Shown: positions 10,547-17,905 of the stretch, piece after piece | Layout: every line of letters begins with the position of its first letter | Position numbering within the stretch: position 1 is the stretch's first letter | DNA from: Candidatus Woesearchaeota archaeon | GTDB lineage: Archaea; Nanobdellota; Nanobdellia; Woesearchaeales; 21-14-0-10-32-9 | Direction of reading: 5' to 3' | Assembly: GCA_021735165.1 (NCBI GenBank) | Contig: JAIPHP010000012.1 | Span: forward strand, 1 to 40,214 | DNA length: 40,214 nucleotides | The notes under the pieces: generated by a model | Seen by the model: the letters and a program-made list of their open reading frames with translations, nothing else | Database searches by the model: none | Told to the model about the DNA's origin: nothing | Translations under genes and position numbers: made by a program

Positions 10547-10632
10547 AATCAAAGAACTTCAAAGAATTATTTAGCACAACAAGTTTGCTGTTTATAAAAA
10601 TCACACAAATAACTTAAAAAAGAACCAAAAAC

Positions 10633-10698
10633 TATATAAATCATTTCTCACTCTAAGATGATAACATAACAAATCATAATTAAACAGCCGCGGGAGGT
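10633..10698 (+). promoter_or_regulatory. Promoter and ribosome site of the surface protein gene
   Basis: TATATAAA lies at 10633-10640. A leader of about 40 nt ends in GGGAGGT (10692-10698), an unusually strong ribosome site for this window, and suggests high expression. Confidence 0.55.
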
Positions 10699-10703
10699 AA
10701 AAA

Positions 10704-12332
10704 ATGAATAAAAAAATAATTATAGGCACAATAGCAATAATAGCACTTATTCTAATGACAATGAGCGCAACAGCACTGGATTTAACTAAACCAAACAACT
10801 ACACAGTAAATTTGGGAGACTCTGTGAATTTTCAACTAACACATGACTACCCAGCAGGAAACGTAACTTACACAGTAACAGGTGGTGGAACAATAGATGC
10901 AACAGAAACATATTCCTGGACACCAACATCAAACGATGAAGGAAACAACACAATCACAATATTTGCTGCAAACATAACAGACTCAGATGATAACGATACA
11001 GAAACATTTAATGTTGAAGTATTACTAAAAGAAGGAACATTTGGCGCAGATTCAATAGAGCTTGGCTCAGAAGACCAAGAAAGAAACACTACAATAACTA
11101 AAACATGGATAGTTACAAATACAGGAGACAAAACAATAAACAACATAGCGATAGAAACAACAGGCAATTCTGAAGATTACGAACTAACTGCAACAGGAGA
11201 CAAAACAACACTATCTCCTGGAGAAAACCTAACAGTAACAATAAGTACGCGAATACCCTGGACGCAAAATTCAGGAAGAGAATCAATAGGAACAATAAAA
11301 CTAACATCAACAAACGCAGATGACTACACAAACACAATATACTTAACAACAGAAACCAAACTATACGTAAAAGCGACCTTTGAAAGAACTGAAGGAAGCG
11401 ATAAATCAGCAACAAGTGATAGATCAATAGACCTTGAACCATTTGAAGACGTATCTATGATAATAGAAGTTGAAAACAGATTTAGCGATAGAGGAGATAC
11501 AGAAGATTTTGAAATCAGAAACATAAGAGTTAAAATCGACAGCAGAGAAATAGACGAAATAGACAATCAAGATGAAGATCTATCAGATTTAGACCCTGAA
11601 GAATTAGACGAGGTAACCTTTGATTTTTCCATGGATCCAAATGAAGTTGACTTTAACGATGAACCATACGAAATAGACATAGAAGTCACAGGAACTGACA
11701 TTAATGGAGCAACACACACAACAAAATTCACAATAACAATAAATTTAGACAGAGAAAATGAAGACATAAGATTTGATTCAATAACAACTTCAAAATCCTT
11801 CATAAACTGCGACGAAACATCAGTATATATAGACTTCACACTATATAATGTTGGAACAAGAAACCTAGACGATGCAATGGTAAGGGTAGAAATAGACGGC
11901 ATAGATGCCAGAACTTACCTAAGAGAAATAGAATTGGACGAAGGAGAAGACAGTGAATTCAGAGTAAGATATGATTTTCCAGAAGATGAAGAATTAGAAG
12001 ATGGATTATACTACATGGATTTAAGAGCATACCCTGACGGAGCAGATAACGAATACACAGACACAGACACAATAGAACTAGAAGTTAGAGGATGTTCAAC
12101 AACACAAGATACTGATGACGACAAAGAAGATACAAAAACTGATGATGATAAAACAACTGTAGTAACAACTCCTCCAACAGTTCCTGCAACAACAGGACAA
12201 CCAGTGTCCACAAGCACAGGAAGCAAAATAATAAATACCAGTAGCAACGGATATTTAATAGCTCTAGGAGTTATAGTTTTAGTATTAATAATAATGGTTG
12301 CAGGACTACTAGTTGTAATACTAAAAAAATAA
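10704..12332 (+). CDS. Membrane-anchored extracellular surface protein with Ig/CARDB-like domains
   Basis: This 542-aa protein is exported and held by its C-terminus. A signal peptide spans residues 1-24 (MNKKIII...MSATA). The ectodomain is strongly acidic and rich in Thr/Asn, with beta-sandwich character: an Ig-like stretch near 30-105, another near 120-225, and a CARDB-like domain near 360-460 containing two Cys. A Thr/Pro/Ser-rich stalk (about 460-510) with repeated Asp/Lys leads into a single transmembrane helix (about 515-539) ending KK. The layout resembles archaeal S-layer-associated or adhesion proteins. Promoter and ribosome site are both strong. Binding partner unknown; S-layer component is the main alternative. 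Confidence 0.82.
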   Translation: MNKKIIIGTIAIIALILMTMSATALDLTKPNNYTVNLGDSVNFQLTHDYPAGNVTYTVTGGGTIDATETYSWTPTSNDEGNNTITIFAANITDSDDNDTETFNVEVLLKEGTFGADSIELGSEDQERNTTITKTWIVTNTGDKTINNIAIETTGNSEDYELTATGDKTTLSPGENLTVTISTRIPWTQNSGRESIGTIKLTSTNADDYTNTIYLTTETKLYVKATFERTEGSDKSATSDRSIDLEPFEDVSMIIEVENRFSDRGDTEDFEIRNIRVKIDSREIDEIDNQDEDLSDLDPEELDEVTFDFSMDPNEVDFNDEPYEIDIEVTGTDINGATHTTKFTITINLDRENEDIRFDSITTSKSFINCDETSVYIDFTLYNVGTRNLDDAMVRVEIDGIDARTYLREIELDEGEDSEFRVRYDFPEDEELEDGLYYMDLRAYPDGADNEYTDTDTIELEVRGCSTTQDTDDDKEDTKTDDDKTTVVTTPPTVPATTGQPVSTSTGSKIINTSSNGYLIALGVIVLVLIIMVAGLLVVILKK

Positions 12333-15882: not shown

Positions 15883-16656
15883 TCATTTATGTTTATAGAA
15901 ATATTTCTCATCTATTTTGTTATTTATTATTTTAACACATTCACTTTCAAGAAGAGCCTTCTTTTTTTTCAAACCCTCCGCAAATCCTCCAAGAGAGCCA
16001 TCACTAGCAACAACTCTATGACAAGGAACTTCAGGCGCCCAAGAATTTTTGTTCATAATCTGACCGACAGCTCTATAAGCCTTGCTTCCGACACGATTTG
16101 CAAGTTCTTTATAAGTTGTTACTTTTCCTTTCGGAACAGCAAGAAGCGCAGTATAAATTTTTTGCTTTAGACTCGGCTTAAAATATTTTTTGTATTCATA
16201 GACTTTCTGATCAAAAGAAAGTCTAGCATATCTAGGACTAGGTGATGGAAGCGTTAATGTTTTTACGGTTATATCTGAAAAAATCTTCCTGAAAATATTC
16301 TCGACGAATTTACTTGTAAAAAATATCTTTTTAATTTCCTTATTATGTTTTAGAATATTTTTTATGTCCATATACTCAATTATTTCAAGATTCTTATCAG
16401 AGGAATCTCCTTTTTTTCTTCTGCATTTCATTATGATGTCAGTCATGGCAATATTATTAATTTCAAGAAACAACTCCTTCTTTCTTTTTGTCTTAATATC
16501 TGTTTTATAAATACTCTCAATTATTTTCCAAAATTGATTTTGTTTGCTAGAGTAAAAAAAATCATTTTTACTAAGACTTATAGGGGGGAAACTTCCAATA
16601 ATAAGAAATTCTGCATTCCTAGGAACATAATGAGGAAATGGATGAACAATTATCAT
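15883..16656 (-). CDS. DNA base-repair fusion: family 6 (HDG-like) glycosylase plus O6-alkylguanine-DNA alkyltransferase
   Basis: Two repair domains lie in one 257-aa chain. Residues 1-160 resemble the uracil-DNA glycosylase superfamily, closest to family 6 hypoxanthine-DNA glycosylases: motif 1 is LIIGSFPPISLS (18-29), Asn40 lies in KQNQFW, MTDIIMKCRRKKGDSSD is near 71-87, and the motif LPSPSPRYARLSFDQK is at 136-151. Residues 163-241 are an Ogt/MGMT domain with VPKGKVTTYKELA, RAVGQIMNKN and the acceptor Cys212 in PCHRVV. The alkyltransferase takes methyl groups from O6-methylguanine; the glycosylase would excise deaminated bases. Cys212 is present, so this is not an alkyltransferase-like (ATL) protein. 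The ATG has an AATAAATAAG-like element just upstream. Confidence 0.85.
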   Translation of the reverse strand: MIIVHPFPHYVPRNAEFLIIGSFPPISLSKNDFFYSSKQNQFWKIIESIYKTDIKTKRKKELFLEINNIAMTDIIMKCRRKKGDSSDKNLEIIEYMDIKNILKHNKEIKKIFFTSKFVENIFRKIFSDITVKTLTLPSPSPRYARLSFDQKVYEYKKYFKPSLKQKIYTALLAVPKGKVTTYKELANRVGSKAYRAVGQIMNKNSWAPEVPCHRVVASDGSLGGFAEGLKKKKALLESECVKIINNKIDEKYFYKHK

Positions 16657-16699
16657 AATAAAAAATAAGAATGCTTATTTATTACTTTTATGGTTGATT

Positions 16700-16809
16700 A
16701 TTGCGCGCTAGCGAAGGGGGTTTAATACTCCGACCTGCACAAAAATCTTTGATTTTTGGCATGCGAATAAAAACTTTGTTTCTGTGCATTTAGGTCGATA
16801 GCACGCAAT
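16700..16809. repeat. Structured repeat unit A
   Basis: The outer arms are ATTGCGCGCTA (16700-16710) and TAGCACGCAAT (16799-16809), with 10 of 11 paired. The inner arms are CGACCT-GCAC (16731-16740) and GTGC-attt-AGGTCG (16784-16797). The core holds two small hairpins: CAAAAATCtttGATTTTTG (16740-16758) and AAAC-ttt-GTTT (16771-16781). The stretch 16723-16764 recurs as 16838-16879 in unit B with 40 of 42 bases identical. Confidence 0.75.
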
Positions 16810-16810
16810 C

Positions 16811-16923
16811 TGAAAATCGCGATAAGCGACTGAGTCGTAATACTCCGTCCTGCTCAAAAATCTTTGATTTTTGGCATGCCAGAAACTTTTAGTTTCTTAG
16901 CAGACTCGGAGCAGCGATTTTCA
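16811..16923. repeat. Structured repeat unit B
   Basis: The outer arms TGAAAATCGC (16811-16820) and GCGATTTTCA (16914-16923) pair over 10 bp. The inner arms are CTCCG (16843-16847) with CGGAG (16907-16911) and CTGCT (16850-16854) with AGCAG (16899-16903). The core hairpins are CAAAAATCtttGATTTTTG (16855-16873) and AGAAAC-tttta-GTTTCT (16881-16897). Unit B starts 115 bases after unit A in the shared segment and ends exactly at the stop codon of the next minus-strand gene, so it could also act as that gene's 3' structure. Confidence 0.75.
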
Positions 16924-17721
16924 TTATTTCTTAATAAGCTTTTGCATAGCATTTACAAAATCATCAGCTTCTTTAAAGTACTTCTCAAAATCAGAACCAT
17001 CAACTTCCCTAATCTTGCCATGTAAAATATCCTTAGAAAGCATGAAAAACTTCCTGGCAATACCAGGGTACTTAGCACCTATCAATTTCTTACTAACAAG
17101 CTTAGAATCTAAAAATTCAGCGACATGATCAGGACTTGGAGGAATCTCATTAATACTCATCAAAGCAGCATGACTAGCATCCATAACCGCCCAATACAAA
17201 TCAATACAAGCCTGCGCTAGTCTACTCCTGGCCGCCTTAATACTTCTAGGTGCCCTATTAAAATAACTCCACAAAGCTTCACTACTAGGTCTTAATCTGC
17301 CCTGGTGCAACAATAATTGAATAGGGTCAAAAAAACCAGTATCAATCAAAGCATAACCGTCCCTTAAAATATTCAAAGCAATAGGATCTCCATTCCGAAT
17401 ATACTCCCAAAAGCTAGTAAACTTCATACTTGTAACATGAATTTTAGGATCTACTTTACGAACAATGTTTTCAACAATCAAACGATACCCTTGAACCATT
17501 TCTTTGGACAAAATAACAGAAACATCATCAACAATCAACAAAATATCAATATCATTAGATTTCTGCTTTGCTCTAGCAGCACTTCCAAATAAAACGACCG
17601 CTTTTAACAAATCCTTAAGTTCTTTATGAGCTTCTTTAGCAAACCTATACGCAGTATCTAAAACAACAGCAGAATAATTATCTTTTTCTTTATGTGTTCT
17701 TTTATGAATATTAAAGTCCAA
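16924..17721 (-). CDS. Nucleotidyltransferase protein with HEPN-like helical C-terminus (MNT-HEPN type)
   Basis: This 265-aa protein has an MNT-type nucleotidyltransferase domain: VVLFGSAARAKQKSNDIDIL with Gly-Ser at 46-47 and the metal-binding Asp57 and Asp59. The C-terminal half (about 140-265) is all helical and resembles the HEPN-like domain often found fused to or beside MNT proteins. I do not see a clear HEPN Rx4-6H RNase motif, so a toxin activity is unsupported. The start is a TTG at 17721, chosen because AGAAGGGGTGA lies 4 bases before it; a longer frame to a TTG at 17796 lacks such a site. A TATA-like CTATTTAAAATAC lies upstream. The 184 bp between this gene and the next upstream minus gene show nothing else. 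Confidence 0.78.
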   Translation of the reverse strand: MDFNIHKRTHKEKDNYSAVVLDTAYRFAKEAHKELKDLLKAVVLFGSAARAKQKSNDIDILLIVDDVSVILSKEMVQGYRLIVENIVRKVDPKIHVTSMKFTSFWEYIRNGDPIALNILRDGYALIDTGFFDPIQLLLHQGRLRPSSEALWSYFNRAPRSIKAARSRLAQACIDLYWAVMDASHAALMSINEIPPSPDHVAEFLDSKLVSKKLIGAKYPGIARKFFMLSKDILHGKIREVDGSDFEKYFKEADDFVNAMQKLIKK

Positions 17722-17905
17722 CGACTCACCCCTTCTAAAACAATAATGAAAGAGGTATTTTAAATAGTTTTCCCTTAAAAAGAAATCAGGATACAAATAA
17801 ACTCTGGATACTTATCTGTAAACCATAATTTTTATTCGCATAAGATTAAACGTTTCTTTTCAATGTCAAAAAAACAAAATACACTTACAAAAAATGCTTG
17901 TAAAT

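Follow-up and report, generated by a model that had tools for sequence, protein, structure and literature searches.

The repeat pair at positions 16700 to 16923 of the window (the whole 40,214-nt stretch analyzed here, which is contig 12 of a 1.10-Mb Woesearchaeota genome, 97.9% complete) is very probably one non-autonomous element derived from IS200/IS605 transposons, a PATE, in which unit 1 serves as the left end and unit 2 as the right end and which would be moved in trans by a Y1 TnpA through single-stranded guide/target pairing. The two repeats are not free-standing; together they make up one element of 226 nt. Because the shortest undeleted form of the family, about 136 nt between TTAT and TTAT, holds both units inside, the two units belong together. 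An earlier, sequence-only reading of this DNA had described a 42-base core repeated at a 115-base step, with an outer stem, an inner stem and small hairpins in each unit. All of these are present in the sequence (repeat detection gives 55 nt at 85% identity), and the four bases it named are correct, A16739 and T16785 in TGCA/TGCA and T16854 and A16899 in TGCT/AGCA. Both units also fold better than shuffled sequence, with RNA z scores of -2.7 (other strand -4.3) for unit 1 and -4.5 (other strand -5.0; DNA z -7.0) for unit 2. Its statement that no known element type is recognizable can be replaced, as the units are best read as transposon ends of the IS200/IS605 type. The parts of the window copy are as follows.

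16698..16701, +: left target/cleavage tetranucleotide TTAT, which lies in the flank and stays 5' of the element; it precedes 20/20 copies delimited at both ends, and the empty site has a single TTAT
16702..16927, +: whole element, 226 nt, gene-less, two-ended, PATE-like; boundaries from 20 copies
16700..16809, +: unit 1, the putative left end (helix 1 pair counts; the left end of an intact IS200 is laid out alike)
16700-16710 and 16799-16809, +: outer stem of unit 1, ATTGCGCGCTA / TAGCACGCAAT
16724..16727, +: predicted left guide tetranucleotide AATA, directly 5' of the left hairpin; matches TTAT under the IS608 rule (PMC5934647, PMC8266576)
16736..16788, +: double-hairpin module of 53 nt, TGCACA...TGTGCA, inserted into the loop of the left hairpin at CC|TTTAGG; by alignment to module-free copies, a mosaic of the site-A module and a nested module, GAATAAAAACTTTG
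16812..16922, +: unit 2, the putative right end (helices 4 and 5 with both-side changes)
16812-16820 and 16914-16922, +: outer stem of unit 2, GAAAATCGC / GCGATTTTC
16830-16836 and 16903-16909, +: middle stem of unit 2, CTGAGTC / GACTCGG
16839..16842, +: predicted right guide tetranucleotide AATA (guide/target covariation in 59/60 copies)
16851..16902, +: mosaic insert in which a left site-B half-module (TGCTC...GGCATGCC) runs on into a right site-D half-module (AGAAACTTTTAGTTTCTTAGCA)
16924..16927, +: right cleavage tetranucleotide TTAT, the element tip

A covariance model of the element matches the window at 16698-16927 with 109 bits. The window copy carries inserts and is probably no longer mobile, because the right arm of its right-end hairpin (GGGCGGAGATA) has been deleted.

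The further copies that the sequence-only reading had proposed to look for are abundant. A BLAST search of the same genome with the repeat sequence gave 95 matches, far beyond chance, which represent about 38 copies or copy clusters with unrelated flanks, and covariance-model searches found the family in relatives as well. The 20 copies delimited at both ends read TTAT|TGCG...TTAT, with TTAT 5' of every one of them (in one, L034, the automatic left boundary was set on an inner TTATTG); the right tip is TTAT in 19 and TTAA in the remaining one, and the flanks differ beyond TTAT. Complete copies range from 59 to 376 nt, and no transposase gene lies inside. Evidence for movement comes from a 180-nt copy at C8:19530, which is absent from G001, a genome of the same genus. 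At this position G001 reads TTATATTTTTG once and the copy-bearing genome reads TTAT-element-TTAT-ATTTTTG, and four other relatives are also without the copy. No target duplication beyond the targeting TTAT is seen at this empty site, which is the one clean site, the flanks of most other copies being too diverged or rearranged for a comparison of orthologous sites. Moreover, G010 bears four equal-scoring copies at different, unrelated sites, identical where read, and sets of equal-scoring copies occur in G038 and G151 as well. Mobility is thus supported both by the absence of the 180-nt copy in relatives and by the identical dispersed copies in G010, in a comparison of genomes from different species rather than strains.

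The family is distributed class-wide, often with identical copies in different places. A first covariance model matched 39 of 194 relatives at E<=1e-4, and a second model, built on the matches of the first, detected the element in 52 of 378 genomes of the class (E<=1e-6), among them members of several families from other orders. In a phylum sample 65 of 279 genomes were matched and, among the matches listed, all fall within the class; the majority of genomes, without a match, serve as a composition-matched control. Two exact-pattern scans of viral contigs gave no match, and a tRNA search of the window found none.

In IS608, on which the proposed mode of movement is modeled, four bases that adjoin each hairpin on its 5' side act as a guide and recognize the four bases of the cleavage site through cross and linear base pairing, A+16 pairing with T-3 and A+17 with T-4 (left guide AAAG with cleavage site TTAC, right guide GAAT with cleavage site TCAA; PMC5934647, PMC8266576). 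We read this rule as three pairs, g1:t2, g2:t1 and g4:t4, which fit both IS608 ends, and took as the guide position in the new family the AATA immediately before the hairpin. All three pairs are satisfied at the right ends of 59 of the 60 distinct copies, a count that is inflated by kinship between copies; with guides shuffled 20,000 times the mean was 31 and the maximum 42 fits of 60, the target being allowed two offsets alike in data and shuffles. The right-end combinations are AATA/TTAT (29 copies), AAAA/TTAT (12), AAAG/TTAC (11), CATA/TGAT (4) and, in one copy each, CAAA/TGAT, GAAA/TCAT and AAAT/TTAA, with AAAA/TCAT as the sole misfit. The TTAC state is spread over several taxonomic families, and TTAT copies occur in some of these too. 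At the left ends, the fourth bases of guide and target are complementary (A:T or G:C) in 44 of 49 resolved copies and other in 5. The two ends of L207 even differ from each other (left AATA/TTAT, right CATA/TGAT), and each fits the rule. Judged from these copies, the guide at each end and its cleavage site change together, as in IS608.

By analogy with IS608, each end would fold, as single-stranded DNA, into a hairpin on its outer stem, and a Y1 HUH transposase (TnpA) supplied in trans would bind both hairpins. Each hairpin's guide tetranucleotide would then pair with that of the cleavage site through g1:t2, g2:t1 and g4:t4, and TnpA would cut 3' of TTAT, excise a single-stranded circle and insert it 3' of another TTAT. 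No Y1 transposase is recognizable in the genome of the window (97.9% complete). A plausible source is seen in G033, where, besides gene-less copies of the element, an IS200 of 544 nt is present twice in identical form; the product of its tnpA has an HLH motif and a C-terminal tyrosine and matches the solved structures of ISHp608 and other Y1 TnpA proteins. The left end of this IS200 (GGGTTTAATACCCC, hairpin and outer stem) and its TTAT tips match the family; its right end has an ATACCCC hairpin, and its right guide GATA fits TTAT only via a G.T wobble. The ends of an IS200 in G010 likewise have near-terminal palindromes akin to those of the element. We infer, as the best account of these data, that mobilization takes place in trans by a TnpA of the G033 type, which in the lineage of the window was perhaps lost or was left unassembled. 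Across relatives, a Y1 transposase occurs in 10 of 19 element-bearing genomes versus about 6 expected, so that there is no clear tie to Y1 presence, and a search for TnpB (PF07282) in five close genomes gave one weak match below the cutoff. A Y1 transposase beside the element in G064 (L140) was considered as an autonomous form and rejected, as it is without matching ends. In G010, a decayed IS200 (L083 1300-1930, G010:C31) adjoins the orthologue of the nucleotidyltransferase gene (16924-17796) that borders the element in the window. At two contig ends (L043 1-130 and the end of L047, contigs C3 and C20), IS605-like right-end hairpins interrupt element copies, which suggests multi-copy IS elements that are absent from the assembly.

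The structure of the element appears to be maintained by selection. In nine module-free or stripped backbones aligned by MAFFT (nine were used because MAFFT on all 13 misaligned unit 2 of the G001/G010 subfamily), 95.9% of the cells are paired and 8 of 43 pairs are altered on both sides, compared with 34-44% paired and 0-1 both-side changes in slid controls of the same nine. In unit 1, for instance, GCTA/TAGC has become GTTA/TAAC, and in unit 2 AATCGC/GCGATT has become AATCCC/GGGATT. Among 35 order-wide copies, 38 of 43 pairs are altered on both sides, in an alignment that was fitted to the structure and so leans towards the model. Real covariation is found in stems other than the core TGCT/AGCA pair, and the selection on structure proposed by the sequence-only reading is supported by it. 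The specific compensatory change, A16739/T16785 to T16854/A16899, on which that reading had relied does not stand.

The reason lies in the composition of the longer copies. Compared with the module-free form, they have 50-57 nt cleanly inserted at one or more of five places in the backbone, namely CC|TTTAGG in the loops of both hairpins, AATAC|CCC, GGAGAT|AGACTCGG and TCTGAA|AATCGCG. Each such module consists of two hairpins whose short feet are complementary; each backbone site has its own module type, combinations differ between copies, and one module carries a further module nested inside. Most of the 42-base core shared by the two units consists of module sequence. In five other copies (L021, L023, L025, L034, L035) the intact site-B module has the form TGCTC...TGTGCA, with a T.T mismatch, so that T16854 occurs there unpaired, opposite TGTGCA; A16899 is part of TTAGCA, the end of the site-D module, which is found at another site in many copies. 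A compensatory mutation was thus rejected: the two halves come from two modules fused through a shared AGAAACTTT, with the hairpin arm between them lost. As read from the aligned copies, the TGCT/AGCA pair in unit 2 is the product of a deletion joining two modules, because that shared sequence links the left part of the site-B module with the right part of the site-D module. Outside the element, hairpin CAAAAATCTTTGATTTTTG and pairs of similar hairpins whose feet are TGC/GCA are found repeatedly across the order (G022, G035, G048, G055, G056 and other relatives; L057, L058, L060-L068).

It is worth asking whether the modules, rather than the two-ended element, are the mobile unit and the backbone merely their host. 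The 50-57-nt modules do occur in varying combinations, at set positions of the backbone and with no duplicated target, and similar two-hairpin inserts break the loop of the right-end hairpin in further families and in another order (L203, L215). Nevertheless, module-free backbones are themselves dispersed, some as identical copies, and modules, with their own type at each site, could ride on backbone copies and be exchanged by recombination, so that we consider this explanation highly improbable. In the favored reading, the modules have entered the palindromes at set positions and have recombined. About as slight is the chance that the units are REP/BIME-type repeats moved by a domesticated TnpA-REP. 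REPs are likewise short intergenic palindromes with a 5' tetranucleotide, and TnpA-REP is a Y1 enzyme (PMC8266576); however, REPs mostly carry GTAG and form inverted pairs, whereas the units here are direct, have AATA, AAAA, AAAG or CATA as guides and show defined left and right tips, and no tnpA was found in the genome of the window.

A functional RNA or 3'-UTR structure (a terminator or mRNA stabilizer) that is kept by selection on the RNA and has multiplied through duplication is unlikely, if a little less so. Such a role would agree with the good RNA folding and with the location of the copies, 33 of 35 of which lie outside the ORFs that a simple script predicts, with 13 between convergent genes and 1 between divergent genes (two-sided binomial, P about 0.002). 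Promoter avoidance explains this bias equally well, however, and in Rfam searches of the window and of 15 relatives' loci no family scored above its gathering threshold at the element. Moreover, it is at odds with copies that end precisely at TTAT, have unrelated flanks, are missing at one site in relatives and recur in identical form at dispersed sites, and RNA function does not predict covariation with a cleavage/target tetranucleotide. The two-ended element moved in trans remains by far the most probable explanation.

The element also contributes to neighboring genes. In about nine copies, opposing genes stop within the terminal CATTAT, where the element tip is the source of the stop codon; in the window, the tip TTAT supplies the stop codon of the opposing gene at 16924-17796 (-). 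One copy in L025 (1913-2858; G000:C27, about 10613-11558) lies in frame within the N-terminal portion of a predicted membrane-type ORF of 314 aa, and may be translated; Rickettsia palindromic elements are a precedent for translated in-frame palindromic elements. Elsewhere in the window, 15883-16656 (-) encodes a predicted protein in which two repair modules, a uracil-DNA-glycosylase superfamily domain and an O6-methylguanine methyltransferase DNA-binding domain, are fused in what looks like an unusual combination.

How DNA-DNA base pairing selects a target has been worked out in IS608, and the choice has been altered by design in the laboratory. Here such target choice has apparently evolved in nature, since besides the common AATA/TTAT other combinations fit the same three-pair rule, and some switches fall inside one taxonomic family; the elements could thus serve as a catalogue of workable guide/target pairs. 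For the poorly known, mostly uncultured DPANN archaea, they add an abundant mobile element missed by current annotation. More tentatively, and possible rather than probable, they may constitute a class-wide DPANN lineage of gene-less single-strand-DNA transposons, with targets naturally re-programmed several times by matched guide and cleavage changes, that hosts independently mobile 50-nt double-hairpin elements. A search for literature on Woesearchaeota repeats or small DPANN transposable elements found no relevant paper. New here are the lineage, the covarying outer stems, the class-wide spread and the natural guide/target series.

Known systems offer close parallels. The SMR-A small mobile repeats of Haloquadratum have inverted ends and insert into near-terminal palindromes of PATEs without target duplication (PMC3119063). 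The modules resemble them in insertion habit, being inserted exactly within palindromes (CC|TTTAGG and other backbone sites) without target duplication, but are about 50-57 rather than 110 nt long, have two hairpins and occupy fixed backbone sites. Double-hairpin elements of fungal mitochondria also consist of two adjacent hairpins and insert into one another; unlike the modules they are organellar, and we know of no link between them and IS200 ends. The element itself can be compared with the PATEs of Haloquadratum walsbyi, which are gene-less and multi-copy, have near-terminal palindromes related to IS605-type ends and lack target duplication (PMC3119063). It shares the PATE features that were tested, being multi-copy, too short for a transposase gene, with IS200/IS605-like palindromes and no duplication beyond the targeting oligonucleotide. 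It differs in belonging to another archaeal lineage, in the long covarying outer stems around each hairpin, in a class-wide two-unit layout found by covariance model and in guide/target covariation across copies. With IS608 and other IS200/IS605 members (ISHp608, ISDra2) it has in common the guide 5' of the hairpin, the cross and linear pairing and the insertion 3' of the target, so that by analogy it would work like IS608 without being an autonomous member of the family, as it has no transposase ORF inside. In contrast to IS608, it carries neither tnpA nor tnpB, its hairpin lies within a second, variable outer stem that is longer than in IS608 ends, and its target is most often TTAT, not TTAC.
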